DNA of 64,000 nt from an uncultured Paenibacillaceae bacterium (GTDB lineage Bacteria > Bacillota > Bacilli > Aneurinibacillales > Aneurinibacillaceae): the NCBI GenBank assembly GCA_946478845.1, contig CAMLDI010000007.1:1-64000 (forward strand). Direction: 5' to 3'. The notes beneath the pieces were generated by a model. That model had not been told where the DNA came from. It saw only the letters and a program-made list of their open reading frames with translations, and made no database searches. The translations under genes and the position numbers were made by a program. How positions within the stretch are numbered: position 1 is the first letter of the stretch; each line of letters starts with the position of its first letter. This document shows positions 4,771 through 42,615 of this stretch, in pieces.

Positions 4771-6135
4771 TTGGCGTTACTTGATGACTTGAAAAAAATC
4801 ATTCCAGCAGAACGAGTGAGCAGTAATGAAACGGTACTCTTTCAACATAGCAAAGATGAATCCTATCACATTGCCCATGATCCTGATGTGGTTGTATTTG
4901 TGGAAACAACAGAGGAGATTAGCCAGATTTTAAAATACGCCAATGAACAGGGGGTTCCTGTTGTTCCTTTTGGTGTAGGGTCCGGGTTAGAAGGGGCGGC
5001 CATTCCAGTGCAGGGCGGGATTGCCCTAGATTTTACCCATATGAATAAGGTCCTTGAAGTACGCCCGGATGATTTTCTGGTACGTGTGCAACCGGGAGTA
5101 ACAAGAGATCAATTAAATAAAGAATTGAAACGGTATGGATTGTTTTTCTCTATTGATCCTGGCGCCGATGCCTCCATTGGGGGTATGTGTGCCACCAATG
5201 CCAGCGGAACCATGGCTGTCCGTTATGGCGTAATGAAAAATCAGGTCAAGGGGCTAGAAGTGGTTTCGGCTAATGGGGAGATTATTCGCACCGGGGGTTT
5301 GTCTGCCAAATCTTCATCAGGATATAACCTGACGGATTTGTTTGTGGGTTCTGAAGGCACCCTGGGGGTTTTTACGGAAATCATTCTTCGTGTCTATGGG
5401 ATTCCCGAGGCAACCATGGCCGTTCGGGCTAGTTTCCCAGGGGTAGAGCAGGCAGTAGATACAGCTTTGGCTATTATGGGTGCCGGGATTCCTGTGGCCC
5501 GCATTGAACTGGTGGATGCTAATGGTATTACCCATGTGAATCGATACAAAGGAGTAGAGTATCCTGCAGCGCCTACCCTTTTCTTAGAGTTCCATGGCAA
5601 TGAGGCAGGCCTGGCTCAGGATGTGGAATTCGCCCAGTCTCTCGCGGCAGAACATGAATGTGTGGAATTTCTTTTTGAAACGGATTCCAAAGCAAGGGCC
5701 ATTCTCTGGGAAGCCAGGCACCACTTTGCCTATTCCTTTATCCATACCTATCAGGGAAGAAAAAAACTGTCTACAGATGTGGTCGTTCCTCTTTCCGAAT
5801 TGCCAGGGGCCATTCGCTTTGCCCATCAACTGTTAGAAGAATCCGGGTTGATTGGAGCGGTGGCAGGGCACGTGGGAGATGGAAACTTCCATACTTTAAT
5901 GATGTTTAATCCGGAAGACCCCAATGAAGTGGAAAAAGTGAATCGCAACAATGAGACAATCGTGGAATTTGCCTTATCCAAAGGGGGAACCAGCACCGGG
6001 GAACATGGGGTTGGCCTGGGCAAAATGAAGTATCAACGCAGGGAACATGGCCAGGCCTACGAGGTGATGGCTGCCATCAAGAAACAATTAGATCCTAAAG
6101 GGATTTTGAACCCAGGGAAACTATTTATGGAATAA
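4771..6135 (+). CDS. glcD: FAD-linked oxidase, GlcD/D-lactate dehydrogenase family
   Basis: A 454-residue flavoprotein of the glycolate oxidase GlcD / D-2-hydroxyacid dehydrogenase type. The N-terminal FAD-binding domain shows PVVPFGVGSGLEGA and the pyrophosphate-binding SIGGMCATNASG. The C-terminal FAD-oxidase domain shows HVGDGNFH and GEHGVGLGK, which hold the metal/substrate histidines. Start is TTG at 4771, two bases after the previous stop, with GGAAGAGGGGAAA as ribosome site. It oxidises a 2-hydroxyacid such as glycolate or D-lactate. No GlcE or GlcF partner is next to it, so the exact substrate and electron acceptor are open. Confidence 0.88.
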   Translation: MALLDDLKKIIPAERVSSNETVLFQHSKDESYHIAHDPDVVVFVETTEEISQILKYANEQGVPVVPFGVGSGLEGAAIPVQGGIALDFTHMNKVLEVRPDDFLVRVQPGVTRDQLNKELKRYGLFFSIDPGADASIGGMCATNASGTMAVRYGVMKNQVKGLEVVSANGEIIRTGGLSAKSSSGYNLTDLFVGSEGTLGVFTEIILRVYGIPEATMAVRASFPGVEQAVDTALAIMGAGIPVARIELVDANGITHVNRYKGVEYPAAPTLFLEFHGNEAGLAQDVEFAQSLAAEHECVEFLFETDSKARAILWEARHHFAYSFIHTYQGRKKLSTDVVVPLSELPGAIRFAHQLLEESGLIGAVAGHVGDGNFHTLMMFNPEDPNEVEKVNRNNETIVEFALSKGGTSTGEHGVGLGKMKYQRREHGQAYEVMAAIKKQLDPKGILNPGKLFME

Positions 6136-31617: not shown

Positions 31618-32031
31618 TTGCATACCACATGGAGAATTTCAGTTTTAAGCGGGTTGGCAACGGAAGATATGCTTCCCTGGCGAGACCGAATTCTGCAATT
31701 AAGTGATGTTCAAGTTCATAAATCTTCTCGGATGGGATTCGTCATGAAGAAGGATGAACCAATCCTTATCACAAAATGTAGAGTTATTGTAGATGGACAA
31801 GAAGGATTTGGGATGTCTATGGGTTATGACGTTGATCGGGCCGAGATCCTGGCTCTCCTTGATGCCTTGTTTCAATGTACGGGAGAAAAATGGGATAAGG
31901 TACAAAAGGATCTGCGATTCTGGATAGAGGAATGGGCTCTGGCACAGGAAGAAGCTGAAGAATATCCCTTTCGCTTAATTCTAGGGACAGGGAAGGATTG
32001 GAAAATGATAGATGAAGGGGAGGGCCAATAA
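31618..32031 (+). CDS. phnG: PhnG-like C-P lyase subunit
   Basis: A 137-residue protein resembling PhnG, a small subunit of the carbon-phosphorus lyase core complex (ribose 1-methylphosphonate 5-triphosphate synthase). The best match is the segment ITKCRVIVDGQEGFGMSMGY followed by DVDRAEILALLDALFQ, which aligns in order with the PhnG block around its conserved RxxE(C/I)xLxDALxQ pattern. Start is TTG at 31618, 6 bases after AAGGGGAG. The other core genes (phnH to phnM) are not in the window. The call rests on remembered family features and needs a profile search. Confidence 0.55.
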   Translation: MHTTWRISVLSGLATEDMLPWRDRILQLSDVQVHKSSRMGFVMKKDEPILITKCRVIVDGQEGFGMSMGYDVDRAEILALLDALFQCTGEKWDKVQKDLRFWIEEWALAQEEAEEYPFRLILGTGKDWKMIDEGEGQ

Positions 32032-32915
32032 TGGTGGGTAAAAGGATGGTGATTGATCTTCATTGCCATACGAATAAGTCTGACAATTCTCTTTCTGTCA
32101 GCCAGGTTTTGCATTTGGCTAAAGTAAATGGGGTGACTCATTTGGCCATTACAGATCATAATACCACACGGGGTATTCATGAAGGAATCCGTTTAGGCCG
32201 ACAAATGGGCATAGAAATTATTCCTGGCATTGAAATCTCTGCTTATGATCATAAACGAAAAGTGAAGGCCCATATTCTTGGTTATTATATTGAACCAGGG
32301 CACCCTTCTCTGGAGAAGCTCTGTGAATTTTTGAATGAATCAAGAAAAAACGCCTCCCTGGAAATGATTCAGCGGATTCAGGATACAGGATACCAAATAA
32401 CCTGGGAGCAGGTTAAAAAATATGCCCCCGAAGGAACCGGTGTTTATAAGCAACATATTATGCATGCCCTCAAGGATCAGGGGTATTGTGAAGAGATTTT
32501 TGGGAGGCTTTATTCTACCCTTTTCGCTCCTGGAGAAGATGGCAGGGAAAAAGGCCTGGCCTATGTTCCTATGGAGTATGTAGATGCTGTAGAAGCCATT
32601 CAGGCCATTCGCGCTGCTGGTGGGGTTCCTGTTCTTGCCCATCCAGGCCAGTATAATAATTATGAGGCAATTGAGGAATGGGCAGAAGCAGGCCTGGAGG
32701 GGATTGAACTTTTTAGCCCTTCCCATAATATAAGAGACGAATGGAAGGTACGCTCGCTGGCAAATCAATATCACTTGATGATAACAGGGGGATCAGATTT
32801 TCATGGTCTCTACGGGGATCCAAGGGCTTATCCTGGCCGCAGGCTAGACCTGGGGTATAAAACCATTGAAGACTTAAAGGCGAAAGCGGGTTCTTTAAAG
32901 TTAAAAACAAAATGA
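32031..32915 (+). CDS. PHP-domain phosphoesterase, PhnPP-like
   Basis: A 294-residue PHP-superfamily metal enzyme. Metal ligands are visible: DLHCHTNKSD at the start, TDHNT, PGIEIS, AHPGQYNN and GGSDFHG near the end. PHP proteins of this kind hydrolyse small phosphate esters such as 3',5'-bisnucleotides, or, in the PhnPP group, ribosyl cyclic phosphate from the C-P lyase route. The overlap with the PhnG-like gene (stop TAA, start ATG share a base) favours the second. A 38-codon ORF begins in its stop codon. Confidence 0.8.
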   Translation: MVGKRMVIDLHCHTNKSDNSLSVSQVLHLAKVNGVTHLAITDHNTTRGIHEGIRLGRQMGIEIIPGIEISAYDHKRKVKAHILGYYIEPGHPSLEKLCEFLNESRKNASLEMIQRIQDTGYQITWEQVKKYAPEGTGVYKQHIMHALKDQGYCEEIFGRLYSTLFAPGEDGREKGLAYVPMEYVDAVEAIQAIRAAGGVPVLAHPGQYNNYEAIEEWAEAGLEGIELFSPSHNIRDEWKVRSLANQYHLMITGGSDFHGLYGDPRAYPGRRLDLGYKTIEDLKAKAGSLKLKTK

Positions 32916-33028
32916 GTATTTTAATGAAACTTTTTTTTATTACTGAACCTTACCTTTTGTTAGCTGTGCTTGGAATGATAGCATATACTTGGGCGTTTAT
33001 TATATTGGTGAATATAAAGGTGAAATAA
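32912..33028 (+). CDS. Possible 38-residue membrane peptide
   Basis: An ORF below usual cut-offs starts at an ATG overlapping the PHP stop (ATGA). It reads as one membrane helix (YLLLAVLGMIAYTWAFIILV) with a Lys-containing end. There is no strong ribosome site; coupling would be needed. It could be real or chance. Confidence 0.35.
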   Translation: MSILMKLFFITEPYLLLAVLGMIAYTWAFIILVNIKVK

Positions 33029-33058
33029 TTGTATATTCCAAAACCTTTTGCTACCCAC

Positions 33059-33096
33059 CTCCCTTTTCTTCTTAACGAGGAAGAGGGAGTTTTTTT
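33059..33096 (+). terminator. Terminator after the phnG-PHP operon
   Basis: CTCCCTTTTCTT pairs with AGGAAGAGGGAG (G-T pairs included), then seven T follow. The next 230 bases to the first peptide gene are AT-rich and hold no visible gene. Confidence 0.75.
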
Positions 33097-33324
33097 ATGG
33101 ACATATGGCGAAAGGGGACCCCCAATGGAAGAATGATATCGGAGGTGAAGTTCATGTGTTATTTCAGGGGCCTTAATTAGACTGATCGGGGAATATATTA
33201 AAAAAATATGAAGAATTTTGTCATAAAAGGTCGAATTTAAAACAATCCCTTTAAATCGTCTTAATAGAAAGGACATATTTACTAGGTAATATAGAGATAT
33301 AAAGAAACAAGGAGGTGAACACAT

Positions 33325-33408
33325 ATGTCTGGAATCCTTGGAATTTTATTAGATGTAGTAACTGGTGTGCTAGGTGCAGTACTTGGATTAGTAGGCGGCA
33401 TTTTCTAA
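33325..33408 (+). CDS. Hydrophobic micropeptide 1 (27 residues)
   Basis: A very short gene with a near-ideal ribosome site (AAGGAGGTGA, 6 bases before ATG). The product starts MSGILGILLDVV and ends VLGLVGGIF. It is almost wholly hydrophobic or Gly, with one Asp and no Lys or Arg. It shares its C-terminal LGLVGGI and its leader (AATATAGA(G/A)ATA ... ACAAGGAGGTGAA) with peptide 2. It is followed by its own terminator. No leader peptide or Cys is present. It could be a membrane-active secreted peptide, a leaderless bacteriocin-like product, a toxin or a small spore-membrane peptide. Confidence 0.75.
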   Translation: MSGILGILLDVVTGVLGAVLGLVGGIF

Positions 33409-33465
33409 TTTTATATCCCTAATTTATTCCCCCCTTGCTATATCTCTCTAATCAATACATAGAAT

Positions 33466-33508
33466 CCCTTATGATCGATTACTTTCCCCTCGGTCATAAG
33501 GGTTTTTT
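33466..33508 (+). terminator. Terminator after micropeptide 1
   Basis: CCCTTATGA and TCATAAGGG form a 9-bp stem with a 19-base loop and six T. The same stem recurs at 34008-34045, which shows that the gene plus terminator unit was duplicated. Confidence 0.8.
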
Positions 33509-33711
33509 CTTGGATTTATTTATTTCCAGTTTATCATGTAAAAGAAACAAAATACTGAGCAAAAAGGAATATTTAGACATTTTAACCTAAATAGTTTAAA
33601 AAAAATTAACGATACGGTACAAATATTCATAATTTCATAAAAATTTCTTAATACAATGAACACATTTAGTGGTTAATATAGAAATATCGACAAACAAGGA
33701 GGTGAAAACAA

Positions 33712-33807
33712 ATGTTATCTCTTGGATTAGGACTTGCAGCAGATTTAACTGCATTAGTAAACGGTGTTTTAGGAGTAGTACTTGGGTTAGTAGGTGGCAT
33801 CCTCTAA
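33712..33807 (+). CDS. Hydrophobic micropeptide 2 (31 residues)
   Basis: Paralogue of the other two micropeptides. It starts MLSLGLGLAADLTALVNG and ends LGVVLGLVGGIL. It has one Asp, no basic residue, and a strong ribosome site (CAAGGAGGTGAAAACAA before ATG). It differs from peptide 3 at only a few positions, most of them conservative, while the DNA differs at many third codon positions. That pattern suggests selection on the peptide sequence. Confidence 0.78.
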   Translation: MLSLGLGLAADLTALVNGVLGVVLGLVGGIL

Positions 33808-33866
33808 TTTCAAAAAGCACGGTTACACTCTCAGTAAATCAATATACATAGAAGTAGGTGAAATCA

Positions 33867-33962
33867 ATGTTATCTCTCGGATTATCTCTCGCAGCAGATT
33901 TGACTGCAGTAGTAAACGGCTTATTAAGCACAGTATTAGGATTAGTTGGCGGCATTCTTTAA
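33867..33962 (+). CDS. Hydrophobic micropeptide 3 (31 residues)
   Basis: The third tandem copy starts MLSLGLSLAADLTAVVNG and ends STVLGLVGGIL. Its ribosome site (GTAGGTGAAATCA) is weaker than in copies 1 and 2. It lies 59 bases after peptide 2, so both are probably on one transcript that ends at the terminator at 34008. Confidence 0.76.
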   Translation: MLSLGLSLAADLTAVVNGLLSTVLGLVGGIL

Positions 33963-34007: not shown

Positions 34008-34045
34008 AAAAGCCCTTATGATCTATTAGGTCATAAGGGCTTTTT
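34008..34045 (+). terminator. Terminator after micropeptides 2 and 3
   Basis: AAAAGCCCTTATGA and TCATAAGGGCTTTTT form a 14-bp stem with a 9-base loop; the T run is part of the right arm. Its core matches the terminator after peptide 1. Confidence 0.85.
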
Positions 34046-34867: not shown

Positions 34868-36595
34868 ATGTTGAAGCTTATCAGATATTTACGGCCCTTT
34901 ACCTTTACTGTCATTCTGGCTCTCGTCCTTCTCTTTTTTCATTCCCTCTCTGAACTTTTTCTGCCTACCTTAATGGCGGAAATTGTGGATCAGGGGGTGG
35001 TCAACGGAGATACGCCTTTGATTTTGCGATTAGGTGGGTTGATGTTATTAGTGGCTGCAGGGGGAACCCTGGCCAATGTGTTTGCCAGTTATTTTTCCGC
35101 AAAAGTAGCCACAGGTTTTGGCCGGGATTTACGCCGTAAGCTTTTTTCCCATGTGGAGGGCTTTTCTTTGCAGGAGTTTGACCAGTTTGGCACAGCCTCC
35201 CTCATTACCAGGACGACCAATGATATTACTCAAGTGCAACAGGTTCTTATGATGATGCTGCGAATGATGGTAGCGGCACCTATGATGGCCATCGGGGGAA
35301 TTATTATGGCGATCTATCAGGATGCCAAACTATCCCTTGTGATTGTGGCCTCCGTTCCTGTTTTAGTTATTGCTATTTTCATTGTAGCGAAAAAGGGAAT
35401 GCCTCTTTTTCGCGCGATGCAGATTAAATTAGATAAAGTAAATCGGGTGCAAAGGGAAGGGCTCACCGGGATTCGGGTCATTCGCGCCTTTAACCGGATT
35501 GCCCATGAGGAACACCGCTTTAATGAGGCGAACCTTGATTTAACCAATACGGCGATTAAAGTCAATAAAATCATGGCTGCCATAATGCCCTTGATGATGC
35601 TGGTTCTTAACTTCTCCACGATTGCAATCATCTGGTTTGGCAGTATTCGCATTAGCAATGGGGATATGCAAGTAGGTTCCTTGATGGCTTTTTTGCAGTA
35701 TGCGATGCAAATTATGTTTTCATTTATTATGGTTTCGATGATGTTTGTTATGATTCCCCGGGCTGCAGCCTCCGCTGCCCGCATTAATGAAGTATTGTTA
35801 GCCAAACCTGTCATCGTCAATCCTGAACAGGTGAACATTCTCAGACATAAAAATGGAACCGTTGAATTTAAAGATGTGACCTTTAGTTATCCTGGGGCTG
35901 AACGCCCGGCTATAAACCATATTTCTTTCAAGGCTAATCCAGGGGAAATAACCGCCATTATTGGGGGGACAGGTTCTGGGAAGAGTACATTAATTAGCCT
36001 CATCCCTCGTTTCTATGATGTGGATTCAGGTGAGATTTTGGTGGATGGAATTGATGTGCGAGACATGGATCAGGAAACCCTGCGGGCCAAAATTGGATTT
36101 GTTCCTCAACAATCTGTGTTATTTACGGGAACAGTAGCTGATAATATCCGTTATGGTAAAGAAGATGCGACAGATGAAGAAGTGAGGCATGCAGCGGAAG
36201 TGGCTCAGGCCCTGGATTTTGTGAATGAAATGAAAGAGGGATTTGCTTCGCCTATTTCCCAGGGAGCCACCAATTTATCCGGTGGGCAAAAACAGCGCTT
36301 GTCCATCGCCCGTGCCCTGGTACGCAAACCGGAGATTTGTATTTTGGATGATAGTTTTTCCGCATTGGATTTTAAAACCGATGCCAAATTGCGTAAAGCC
36401 CTTCACGCTGAAACCACCCATGCCAGTGTCTTTATTGTGGCCCAGCGGGTGAGTACGGTTATGGACGCGGACCAAATTATCGTTTTAGATGCAGGCCGTA
36501 TTGTGGGTATGGGTACCCATGGGGAATTGCTGGCTACCTGTAAGGTGTATAAAGAAATTGTGTCCTCACAATTGTCAGAGGGGGAGAGCGCATGA
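34868..36595 (+). CDS. Heterodimeric ABC exporter subunit, degenerate site (YfiB-like)
   Basis: A 575-residue half-transporter with six membrane helices and a C-terminal ATPase. Walker A is GGTGSGKST and the signature LSGGQKQR is intact. Walker B ends in ILDDSFSALD (Asp where the catalytic Glu should be) and the H-loop reads VAQRVST (Gln for His). This is typical of the subunit that contributes the non-catalytic site in a heterodimer. Start is ATG at 34868. It overlaps the next gene by 4 bases (ATGA). Confidence 0.9.
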   Translation: MLKLIRYLRPFTFTVILALVLLFFHSLSELFLPTLMAEIVDQGVVNGDTPLILRLGGLMLLVAAGGTLANVFASYFSAKVATGFGRDLRRKLFSHVEGFSLQEFDQFGTASLITRTTNDITQVQQVLMMMLRMMVAAPMMAIGGIIMAIYQDAKLSLVIVASVPVLVIAIFIVAKKGMPLFRAMQIKLDKVNRVQREGLTGIRVIRAFNRIAHEEHRFNEANLDLTNTAIKVNKIMAAIMPLMMLVLNFSTIAIIWFGSIRISNGDMQVGSLMAFLQYAMQIMFSFIMVSMMFVMIPRAAASAARINEVLLAKPVIVNPEQVNILRHKNGTVEFKDVTFSYPGAERPAINHISFKANPGEITAIIGGTGSGKSTLISLIPRFYDVDSGEILVDGIDVRDMDQETLRAKIGFVPQQSVLFTGTVADNIRYGKEDATDEEVRHAAEVAQALDFVNEMKEGFASPISQGATNLSGGQKQRLSIARALVRKPEICILDDSFSALDFKTDAKLRKALHAETTHASVFIVAQRVSTVMDADQIIVLDAGRIVGMGTHGELLATCKVYKEIVSSQLSEGESA

Positions 36596-38457
36596 ATCAC
36601 CAGCAGAGCAGAGGACAACGGCCATCTGGGCCGCCAAAGGGATTCTTTGGGGGTGGGGGGCGCCAGGGGATGGCAGGCATGCCCGTAGATAAAGCCAAAG
36701 ATTTTAAAGGTACGCTGAAACGTCTCTTAGGCTATTTGAGGGCCCATCGCTTTCGCCTTCTTGCCGTTTTTCTTATGACCATCCTTAGTACCTTATTTTC
36801 TATTTTTAGCCCCTTATTGTTGGGGAATGCCACTACAAAAATATTCGAAGGGGTAATGGGAGCCGGGGTGGATTTTCAAGCCATCCTGCAAATTCTCCTT
36901 TTTCTTACCGGGTTATATCTTTTTAGTGCCTTTTTTACCTATGTGCAACAATTAATTATGGCAGGTGTGGCCCAGCGAACCGTTTATGAAATGCGGAAGG
37001 AAATCAATGAAAAACTGTCCCGCTTGCCTCTCCGCTATTTTGATTCCCGTACCCATGGGGAAATTTTAAGCCGAATTACCAATGATGTGGACAATATTAG
37101 CACCACTTTGCAGCAAAGCTTGACCCAATTGATTACATCCATTATTACCCTGGTGGGAGTCATTATTATGATGCTCACCATTAGCCCCTGGCTGACCTTC
37201 ATTACGGTGCTCACCTTGCCCCTTAGTTTTATGGCTATTAAAGGGATTGCGAAACGGTCTCAGAAGCATTTTATTGGACAGCAACGGAATCTGGGAGAAT
37301 TAAATGGACATGTGGAAGAAATGTATACAGGGCACAAAATTGTGAAGGCTTTTGGCCATGAGGAGAAATCTGTGGCCCGTTTCCATGAAATTAATGAACG
37401 GTTGTACCAATCCGGCTGGAAGGCCCAATTTATTTCCGGGATGATTATGCCTGTGATGATGTTTATCGGCAATATTGGCTATGTGTTTATTGCTGTTGTG
37501 GGCGGCATTCTGGTGATGAAAGGCATGATTCGCATCGGGGATATTCAAGCCTTTATCCAATATACAAGGCAGTTTACCCACCCCATCACCCAGACGGCCA
37601 ATATCGCCAATATTATTCAGTCTACAGTGGCTTCTGCCGAGCGTGTTTTTGAAATTTTGGATGAAAAAGAAGAAATCCCTGATGGCAAAGATGCCATTGA
37701 ATTGCATCAACCTCATGGGGATGTGGCCTTCCAAGAGGTTACCTTTAGTTATGAGGAGAAGGTGCCCCTCATTGAAAACTTGAACATAAATGTGAAACAA
37801 GGGCAAAACATTGCCATTGTGGGTCCAACAGGAGCTGGGAAGACCACCCTGGTCAACTTGTTGATGCGCTTTTATGAAATCCAGGGAGGAAAGATTACCA
37901 TCGATGGGGTGGATTTGCGCCAGATTAAAAGAGGAAATCTCCGCACCCTCTTTGGCATGGTGCTCCAGGATACCTGGTTATTCAACGGCACCATCTGGGA
38001 GAACATTGCCTATGGGTGTGAAGGGGCAACCGATGAAGAGGTGGTGAAGGCAGCGAAAGCAGCCAATGCAGATCACTTTATTCGCACCCTTCCTGATGGA
38101 TATGATACGGTTCTCAATGAGGAAGCTTCTAACATTTCTCAAGGGCAAAAGCAATTATTAACCATTGCCCGGGCTTTTCTTTCTGATCCAGCTATTCTCA
38201 TTCTGGATGAAGCCACCAGCAGTGTGGATACACGCACAGAAATTCAAATTCAAAAAGCCATGGCGGAATTGATGAAAGGGCGGACCAGTTTTGTCATTGC
38301 CCATCGTTTATCTACCATTCGGGAAGCAGATACCATTCTGGTGATGAATCATGGCAAAGTCATTGAACAGGGAAGCCATGGAGAACTCATTGCCAGAGGT
38401 GGTTTTTATGCTGAGTTGTACCAAAGCCAGTTTGCTGGACAAAAAGATGTGAGTTAG
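36592..38457 (+). CDS. Heterodimeric ABC exporter subunit, catalytic site (YfiC-like)
   Basis: A 621-residue partner with a Gly/Pro/Arg-rich N-terminal extension of about 40 residues, six membrane helices and an ATPase. Walker A is GPTGAGKTT, Walker B LILDEATSSVD with catalytic Glu, H-loop IAHRLST. The signature is ISQGQKQLL, where LSGGQ would be canonical, so the two sites are asymmetric. With the previous gene it forms a drug- or peptide-type exporter. The gene order suggests it may serve the nearby micropeptides, which is unproven. Confidence 0.9.
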   Translation: MNHQQSRGQRPSGPPKGFFGGGGRQGMAGMPVDKAKDFKGTLKRLLGYLRAHRFRLLAVFLMTILSTLFSIFSPLLLGNATTKIFEGVMGAGVDFQAILQILLFLTGLYLFSAFFTYVQQLIMAGVAQRTVYEMRKEINEKLSRLPLRYFDSRTHGEILSRITNDVDNISTTLQQSLTQLITSIITLVGVIIMMLTISPWLTFITVLTLPLSFMAIKGIAKRSQKHFIGQQRNLGELNGHVEEMYTGHKIVKAFGHEEKSVARFHEINERLYQSGWKAQFISGMIMPVMMFIGNIGYVFIAVVGGILVMKGMIRIGDIQAFIQYTRQFTHPITQTANIANIIQSTVASAERVFEILDEKEEIPDGKDAIELHQPHGDVAFQEVTFSYEEKVPLIENLNINVKQGQNIAIVGPTGAGKTTLVNLLMRFYEIQGGKITIDGVDLRQIKRGNLRTLFGMVLQDTWLFNGTIWENIAYGCEGATDEEVVKAAKAANADHFIRTLPDGYDTVLNEEASNISQGQKQLLTIARAFLSDPAILILDEATSSVDTRTEIQIQKAMAELMKGRTSFVIAHRLSTIREADTILVMNHGKVIEQGSHGELIARGGFYAELYQSQFAGQKDVS

Positions 38458-38541: not shown

Positions 38542-39192
38542 ATGGTTGTAGATATGATTAAAAAGGTGATTGGGAACTATATTGATGGTTGTTGGGTTGG
38601 GTCTTTTTTTGGCCAATTCTCGGAACGGATTAATCCCATAAACAATAATGATATCGTTGGCCGTGTTACTCTTTCCACAAGGGAAGATGTAGCGCAAGGG
38701 GTCATTGCCGCATATAAAGCGTTGGTTGGCTGGTCTGCTCATCCCCATTCCCTGCGAAGGGAATATATAAAAAAAGTAGCCATGGTTTTAAGGGAACGGA
38801 TGGATGAAATTCTGGTCACCATGGCCCGTGAAACGGGGAAATCAGTGAAAGATTGCTGGGAGGAAATCGCCAGGGGAATCAGCCTTCTGGAAGCCTCCAT
38901 CTGGGAAGAAACCTCGGAGAGCAATCCTAAAGTCACAGCTTTGCTTCATTCAAGGCACCATTCTCTGGACGAACTTTTAAAGGAAATTGCCTATGAGTTA
39001 CACAGTGGAAATACCATTATTATCAAACCTTCCCTGGAGAAGACGGTAACGGTTGCCAGGATCATGGATTGTTTTGGGTCAGCCCAATTGCCTGACGGTG
39101 TGGTCAATATGGTTAGCGGGTTAGACGCCATTGTAGAAAATGCTCTATACCAGCATAAGAATATTAATGTAAAAGAGATTCCTGCCTTTTAA
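38542..39192 (+). CDS. Aldehyde-dehydrogenase-like fragment without active site
   Basis: A 216-residue protein whose first 110 residues resemble the N-terminus of aldehyde dehydrogenases (NYIDGCWVGSF, INPINNNDIVGRVTLSTRED, MARETGKSVKDCWEE). The segment with PWNFP is replaced, after which ELHSGNTIIIKPSLEKTV and LPDGVVNMVSGLD align with the NAD-binding region. The catalytic Cys and Glu domains are absent. The ribosome site (AAGGGGGGAAGAGA) is strong, so it may still be expressed. It is either a decayed gene or a reused fragment. Confidence 0.6.
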   Translation: MVVDMIKKVIGNYIDGCWVGSFFGQFSERINPINNNDIVGRVTLSTREDVAQGVIAAYKALVGWSAHPHSLRREYIKKVAMVLRERMDEILVTMARETGKSVKDCWEEIARGISLLEASIWEETSESNPKVTALLHSRHHSLDELLKEIAYELHSGNTIIIKPSLEKTVTVARIMDCFGSAQLPDGVVNMVSGLDAIVENALYQHKNINVKEIPAF

Positions 39193-42340: not shown

Positions 42341-42615
42341 TATGCAATTGCGAGGAAGAAGAAGAGTAGGCAGATCGGAAGACGACAGAGAGCCGGTGGG
42401 TGGTGTGAACCGGTGTCCAACGGGTGCTGAATGGGCTTTGGAGCAGCAAACCGAAAGGAAACCAGTAGGCTTTGCCGTGGAGGTCCCCACGTTATCAAAG
42501 GACACCGTATGTTGGTACGGTTAAAGTGATTTCGGTATGACTATACCGGAATAATAAGGGTGGCACCACGGTCCATTCGTCCCTTTTAAACCAGGGATGA
42601 GTGGGCCTTTTTTAA
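42341..42615 (+). ncRNA. T-box leader of trpS (Trp specifier)
   Basis: A T-box riboswitch. The conserved AGGGTGGCACCACGG element is at 42557-42571. A terminator stem (CATTCGTCCC with GGGATGAGTGG) and a T run follow and end at about 42615. In stem I the specifier region reads CTGAATGGGC, giving the Trp codon TGG at 42432-42434. Uncharged tRNA-Trp would pair with the specifier and the T-box and allow read-through into trpS. Confidence 0.93.

Follow-up and report, generated by a model that had tools for sequence, protein, structure and literature searches.

The window, by which we mean the whole stretch of 64,000 nucleotides analysed here, carries three very short genes for hydrophobic peptides, which lie between a PHP-domain gene (32031-32915) and three larger genes encoding a TM-coiled-coil protein and the two halves of an ABC exporter (Table 1). 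The frames of 27, 31 and 31 codons were found where they had been predicted from the DNA letters, and each of the three peptides has a single Asp and neither Lys nor Arg. The original prediction had called the peptides near-identical, which holds for copies 2 and 3 (84% identity) but not for copy 1, which is only 59% identical to copy 2 and is a subtype apart from the other two. The strong ribosome sites that it described are present at copies 1 and 2 (AAGGAGGTGAA), whereas the site of copy 3 is weaker (AAGTAGGTGAA), and a folding estimate of 0.22-0.38 mean unpaired at the three sites indicates that they are not fully open.

Table 1. Features of the peptide locus and of the genes that follow it (positions in the window).
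Feature	Position	Strand	Description
Leader 1 (promoter and 5' untranslated region)	33187-33324	+	123/138 bases identical to the MAG leader
Promoter-like TTGTCA-17-AACAAT in leader 1	33218-33246	+	consensus scan
Ribosome site of gene 1, AAGGAGGTGAA	33309-33319	+	
Peptide gene 1	33325-33408	+	27 aa, subtype B, peptide MSGILGILLDVVTGVLGAVLGLVGGIF
Intrinsic terminator 1	33466-33508	+	stable hairpin and T run
Leader 2	33513-33711	+	157/195 aligned bases identical to MAG leader 2
Ribosome site of gene 2, AAGGAGGTGAA	33696-33706	+	
Peptide gene 2	33712-33807	+	31 aa, subtype A, peptide MLSLGLGLAADLTALVNGVLGVVLGLVGGIL
Ribosome site of gene 3, AAGTAGGTGAA	33852-33862	+	
Peptide gene 3	33867-33962	+	31 aa, subtype A, second gene of its cassette, peptide MLSLGLSLAADLTAVVNGLLSTVLGLVGGIL
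Intrinsic terminator 2	34008-34045	+	symmetrical (A run and T run)
TM-coiled-coil protein, 224 aa	34159-34833	+	TM helix, helical-hairpin coiled coil and Trp-rich tail
Half-transporter of heterodimeric ABC exporter	34868-36595	+	Pfam ABC_membrane and ABC_tran; 90% identical in L001
Second half-transporter	36592-38457	+	91% identical in L001

A scan of 84,980 species genomes gave 191 stretches that fitted a strict 9-residue pattern, one of which encoded a relative; with a single strict pattern, distant relatives could be missed. This sole relative is a syntenic contig (L001) of an uncultured Paenibacillaceae MAG, with the same flanks as the window (coiled-coil protein 75% identical; ABC proteins as in Table 1) and four peptide genes arranged as two cassettes: 5031-5126 and 5189-5284 followed by a terminator, then 5580-5675 and 5737-5832 followed by another. 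In the window, the first cassette consists of leader 1, gene 1 and terminator 1 and the second of leader 2, genes 2 and 3 and terminator 2. The earlier claim that leader and terminator are duplicated is thus right in that there are two leader-terminator cassettes, but there are three genes and copies 2 and 3 share one set; the layout is one of two cassettes (2+2 in the MAG, 1+2 in the window) and not of one unit in triplicate. Window genes 2 and 3 are the counterparts of MAG genes 3 and 4 in both position and sequence, with 89/96 bases identical between window gene 3 and MAG gene 4. Window gene 1 has the leader of MAG gene 1 but a body like that of MAG gene 2: codons 2-27 of the window gene match codons 6-31 of MAG gene 2 at 62/78 bases, compared to 49/78 for MAG gene 1. 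The simplest history suggested by these alignments would start from an ancestral 2+2 layout, with leader 1 and gene 2 brought together by a deletion in the window, and an insertion in the MAG could also account for the difference.

Both terminators form stable hairpins when folded (-19.9 and -23.8 kcal/mol) and have counterparts in L001 (5340-5377 and 5871-5906); a simple terminator scanner listed both in L001 and neither in the window. Terminator 2 is possibly bidirectional because it is symmetrical, with an A run and a T run. Leader 2 can be aligned with leader 1 near the start codon. Leader 1 contains a promoter-like site at the matching aligned place in the window (TTGTCA-17-AACAAT) and in L001 (TTGTCT-17-TACAAT), and since such sites are as numerous in shuffled DNA, it is only the shared position that carries weight. 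The full AGGAGGTGA site or a visible terminator is not found in every family member. A sigma-H type promoter, looked for by eye, was rejected due to the wrong spacing. Rfam gave no family near the peptide genes at the gathering score, with nine other matches all below that score, and the idea of a riboswitch or structured leader was discarded in the absence of a credible Rfam match near these genes.

The codons had been said to differ mainly at third positions, which is moderately true, with 12 synonymous and 9 non-synonymous changes between copies 2 and 3. pN was lower than pS in 21/21 pairs, with ratios of 0.17-0.61 (Nei-Gojobori); these pairs, 15 among the six 31-codon genes and 6 with gene 1 (window and L001), are non-independent. 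Pooling of the three orthologous pairs gave 23 synonymous changes in 74.3 sites (pS 0.310) and 15 non-synonymous changes in 189.7 sites (pN 0.079), with a Fisher p of 6.6e-6 on rounded counts. These substitution patterns show that the micro-genes are under purifying selection. The two leaders are conserved between the window and the MAG (Table 1) at approximately the level of the nearby coding sequences, where identities were 738/885 for the PHP gene, 546/675 for the coiled-coil gene and 854/1000 for the ABC genes (range, 81-85%). Between the PHP stop and leader 1, identity was 41/82 (193 gap columns); it was 35/59 in the spacer between genes 2 and 3 and 81/108 aligned bases (29 gap columns) in the stretch before the 34159 gene. 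The prediction of duplicated, selectively kept hydrophobic micro-genes is therefore supported by synteny in a second genome and by the synonymous excess, and further backed by leader conservation close to that of coding genes and by additional members in the MAG. It had been exposed to two possible outcomes, a lack of homologues at any synteny and a lack of synonymous bias; homologues were found, and pN was below pS in all pairs compared.

Some smaller features upstream of leader 1 were not seen at the matching place in L001. A 38-residue TM-like frame and a terminator hairpin (33059-33089) lie between the PHP gene and leader 1 (32912-33089 together), and just upstream of leader 1 (33141-33180) there is a ribosome-like site, GGAGGTGAA, with an eight-codon frame from ATG to TAG, possibly a relic.

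At least three further members are present in the MAG, on three other contigs (C85, C250 and C196), each with a ribosome site. The C85 member is of the MLFG type (MLFGSLLGIVTGLLGKVLGIVGGIGLL), and the edge of this contig appears to hold the end of a further copy; the C250 member is of the same type (MLFGSLLGVVTGLL...), and its contig ends inside the gene; the C196 member (MLSLGLGLALDLSGILGALLGLLGGLLGGLL) has a terminator of its own, with a Clp-type ATPase gene behind it. Terminators folded for the C85 and C196 members. A 206-base leader-and-start region of C250 matches C85 at 87% over positions 8-206, and the two may be neighbours that were parted by the assembler at a repeat. A search of the MAG with the leader region picked up C85 and C250; apart from these, C111 had two matches that were short and weak (E 0.33 and 0.61). 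A start pattern, AGGTGA-N2..9-ATG-YTN-TYN-NNN-NGN, which was designed around the seven MAG starts already known, gave seven matches in the 3.4-Mb MAG, all of them known members, and one in the reversed control; built as it was from known starts, it indicates that there are no extra members of that start type and is not independent confirmation. Of the three window genes, 2 and 3 match this pattern and gene 1 does not. It is unspecific outside the MAG, with 35 matches in the 14 other genomes of the order versus 23 in the control orientation, and none of the 27 frames translated out of these 35 belongs to the peptide family. Taken at the sequence level, these copies establish the locus as one site of a multigene family with scattered paralogues.

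The family seems to be restricted to a narrow lineage. Profile searches found no genome other than the MAG, both in the family (1/11 genomes, E <= 0.01) and in the order (1/15, E <= 0.05), as did a search of the order with the C85 peptide alone (1/15, E <= 1). At E <= 10, 8/15 genomes of the order gave a match, and the seven besides the MAG lie within frames of 183-1046 aa. The samples of 398 genomes each gave two matching genomes: the MAG and a match inside a 757-aa frame for the class (E <= 0.01), the MAG and a match inside a 239-aa frame for the phylum (E <= 0.02), and the MAG and an 81-aa ORF, rejected as unrelated, for the sample of relatives (E <= 0.02). Thus, a relative was confirmed in 0/14 other genomes of the order and in no genome besides the MAG in the three samples (MAG included in each), the class and relatives samples not being independent as they share genomes. 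There was no match by tblastn in plasmids and phages, and none of 66 pattern stretches in viral contigs was confirmed. A set of 5.8 billion proteins contained two relatives, P0006, a MAG-type gene extended at the N-terminus, and P0007 (31 aa), and none of the C196 type, for which 115 candidates gave no match. P0007 and P0002, a homologue of the coiled-coil protein, have a common source with a longest contig of 2393 bases for both, which suggests the same synteny in a third source. The genes had been described as below gene-calling cut-offs, and this is roughly right, but these two relatives did get called, P0007 at 31 aa and P0006 over-extended to 51 aa, and they illustrate how such a gene family can evade annotation.

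The three window peptides and three relatives gave no match in NCBIfam at E <= 10, bacteriocin models included, or in Pfam at E <= 1. A seven-peptide profile had no match among PDB sequences at E <= 10, and in PHROGs (E <= 1, three window peptides and two relatives) the only match was a weak one for the C85 peptide (E 0.34). We found no paper on these peptides in the open-licence literature, a search with the sequence strings included. With no credible match in NCBIfam, Pfam, PHROGs or PDB sequences, the peptides are assigned to no known family, and they form a new family of a known general kind, the small hydrophobic membrane peptide. A separate observation concerns another genome of the same order (G010; L042, L050, L056 and L061), where AGGTGATAGTATGTTCTTTACA had six matches and four frames encode hydrophobic peptides of 25-29 aa, such as MFFTSIRFVLVIFVLLVIITEGCEN, which itself had no match in NCBIfam at E <= 10.

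The peptides are hydrophobic, with GRAVY values of 1.74-2.07 for nine peptides and a whole-peptide hydrophobic moment of 0.18-0.29. The side-chain charge is -1 in 8/9 peptides and +1 in that from C85, in agreement with the earlier remark that they are unlike most bacteriocins. From an alignment of 7 rows, AlphaFold2 modelled the gene 2 peptide as a single helix that spans residues 2-30 (mean pLDDT, 89.7), and this prediction supports one hydrophobic helix of sufficient length to cross a membrane. No conserved N-terminal extension is present and the ribosome sites lie directly before the ATG of frames of 27-31 codons, for which the best reading at the sequence level is that the peptides are probably leaderless. 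The glycine zipper, given in part of PMC12744356 as (G/A/S)xxxGxxxG or GxxxGxxx(G/S/T), was fitted by 9/10 peptides, with MAG gene 1 as the exception, and by 21-57% of residue shuffles. Since shuffles often contain the motif and MAG gene 1 does not, the fit is consistent with a zipper but is weak evidence for one.

The conserved neighbours downstream are candidate partners of the peptides through their position only. The coiled-coil protein (mean pLDDT of the fold model, 68.9, with the hairpin near 90) is as narrowly distributed as the peptides, with five homologues and a presence in 1/15 genomes of the order, the MAG. A fold search with this model gave 607 matches, none at E <= 0.001, and generic coiled coils were among the 50 listed. 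The solved structures nearest to the first half-transporter are 8wcw_A, 9iqe_A and 3qf4_A, and those nearest to the second are 8wcw_B and 3qf4_B, the latter being TM_0288 of TM287/288. The exporter genes have an upstream region of their own. At the other MAG loci, no close relative of the coiled-coil or exporter genes was found in the stretches of 5,786, 7,960 and 11,021 bases, and there was only a distant ABC ATPase (approximately 30% identity), which lies about 7 kb away from the C196 gene. Pfam scans of eight neighbour proteins revealed no PH-domain protein.

Our preferred reading, which we hold tentatively and at somewhat less than an even chance, is that the peptides are secreted and membrane active. 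Each cassette has its own terminator and a conserved leader, with one or two peptide genes and their ribosome sites in between. The peptides would be made in large amounts at a particular growth phase. As glycine-zipper-like single helices of 27-31 residues, they could insert into a membrane without processing and pack through faces of small residues into oligomers that would permeabilise or depolarise it. The most likely targets would be competing cells, whose membranes the peptides could reach by export, perhaps with the adjacent ABC pair as exporter. In favour of such a role are the tandem, leaderless peptides with an adjoining heterodimeric ABC exporter and the narrow, paralogue-rich distribution. 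Against it is the near absence of positive charge, unlike most membrane-permeabilising peptides, and known membrane-active bacterial micro-peptides are mostly cationic or have charged tails. A more elaborate version, which we regard as unlikely in its entirety, is that the family may represent a new class of antimicrobials, made of mostly anionic, leaderless, bare glycine-zipper TM helices in A/B-type pairs, encoded in scattered Spo0A-linked cassettes and exported by the adjacent heterodimeric ABC pump, the membrane-anchored coiled-coil protein possibly serving as adaptor or immunity factor.

The peptides may instead stay in the membrane of the producer (vegetative cell, forespore or spore) as small structural or regulatory proteins made when sporulation or stationary phase begins, a reading with a lesser but still considerable probability. 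The 27-31 residues show neither a leader nor a signal sequence, and no exporter was found around the other MAG loci in the stretches covered; the finding of no coiled-coil relative and only a distant ABC ATPase near these loci slightly lowers the case for secretion and raises that for an internal role. A perfect TGTCGAA, which we take to be the core of the Spo0A box (0A-box), precedes three MAG members (at -148, -148 and -196), although C85 and C250 share one duplicated leader, so that these amount to approximately two independent sites, and the motif was sought only after the sequences were seen. The core is incomplete in the conserved leaders of both the window and L001: cassette 1 of each has GTCGAA at -95, and cassette 2 has no more than TCGACA, in reverse, at -25/-24. 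The window also has a TGGCGAA at -219, outside the conserved leader. Tiny membrane proteins of spore formers are known to be encoded by narrow, multi-copy micro-genes, and another genome of the order does have a different repeated micro-gene for hydrophobic peptides of 25-29 aa, but no small sporulation family in NCBIfam or Pfam matched our peptides.

It is improbable that the peptides are toxins of type I toxin-antitoxin systems, which would depolarise the producer's own membrane once an antisense RNA is lost. Their size, hydrophobicity and single TM-like helix would fit, as the membrane-associated toxins of this kind (Fst/Ldr, TxpA and Ibs types) are characterised, in the sections of PMC8309996 drawn on here, as hydrophobic proteins of under 60 aa with one TM-like helix. 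The same sections describe the C-terminal part of the toxins as positively charged, bar three named cases (PMC8309996), and the peptides of the window and the MAG lack such a charged tail. They are also encoded in bicistronic cassettes, and such pairs are unusual for type I toxins. A minus-strand promoter-like site is present at a matching place past terminator 2 (34112-34084; L001, 5975-5947), but it points straight into this symmetrical terminator. A further site in L001 (5861-5834) would read antisense over gene 4 but has no listed counterpart in the window, and the numbers of promoter-like sites are close to those in shuffles (6 versus 5.6 in the window and 5 versus 4.8 in L001).

Even less probable, to the point where we give it very little weight, is that the short frames are leader peptides of attenuators, in which translation of a short ORF together with a terminator controls a downstream gene such as the ABC exporter or the Clp-type ATPase. 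A short ORF and an intrinsic terminator do precede the coiled-coil and ABC genes in the window, and the same arrangement is found before the Clp-type ATPase gene (Clp_N, AAA and AAA_lid_9) in L007/L017. However, it is the peptide sequence itself that is conserved and not translation alone, across unlinked paralogues too; two complete cassettes stand in series; and the stretch before the 34159 gene also shows partial conservation. An origin as chance ORFs or as a non-coding repeat can practically be dismissed despite the short, low-complexity translations, given the synonymous excess and given that starts, stops and ribosome sites are conserved between species and among paralogues.

Several known systems resemble parts of this picture. 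YjcZ-type tiny transmembrane proteins of spore formers are hydrophobic, approximately 25-30 aa long and multi-copy in Bacilli, and their family model is present in the NCBIfam/Pfam libraries. Our peptides are alike in size, hydrophobicity, multi-copy state and occurrence in Bacilli but matched no model in NCBIfam or Pfam, loose cut-offs included. Staphylococcal phenol-soluble modulins are leaderless, short helical peptides encoded in operons, with a required ABC exporter encoded elsewhere, and their helix is amphipathic with a charged face. The peptides of the window and the MAG are likewise short, apparently leaderless and predicted to be helical but have at most one charged side chain and the low hydrophobic moment given above, and they have no sequence-family match. 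Most known leaderless class II bacteriocins are cationic. This group (enterocin DD14, aureocin A53/A70 and garvicin KS types), whose members are translated without a leader according to the portion of PMC7616364 consulted, shares with our locus short, clustered, leaderless peptide genes with a possible exporter nearby, in contrast to which our peptides are mostly anionic, have no PH-domain protein among the eight neighbours scanned and match no family model. Membrane depolarisation by glycine-zipper toxins, likely via insertion and assembly into channels, is described in excerpts of PMC12744356. The type VII toxins EsxX, TelE and TspA are alike in having a zipper helix proposed there to insert and oligomerise (PMC12744356), but their zipper is, in the same excerpts, part of a larger secreted protein, whereas here the helix is the whole gene product. 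The peptides may thus resemble leaderless bacteriocins or type I toxins in the way they work and yet be filed under neither.

A selected, multi-copy hydrophobic helix of nearly pure Gly, Leu and Val would be a minimal natural test of whether a bare glycine-zipper helix can serve as a functional gene product. If the peptides act on other cells, they would provide a new antimicrobial scaffold, and if they stay inside, they would be a new family of small membrane proteins for Bacilli.

Some further features were observed in the MAG and in the wider surroundings of the locus. MAG contig C88 (L014) has a 223-residue frame of degenerate, Val/Gly-rich repeats of approximately 11 residues, the start of which looks signal peptide-like by eye. 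Immediately before the PHP-domain gene of the window, 31618-32031 encodes a small protein with a weak PhnG-like match (NCBIfam E 2e-9, below the cut-off). Downstream of the exporter, a fragmentary aldehyde dehydrogenase (38542-39192) covers the first half of the family models only and resembles a decayed gene, and a T-box leader (Rfam RF00230, 122.6 bits) is found at 42344-42587.
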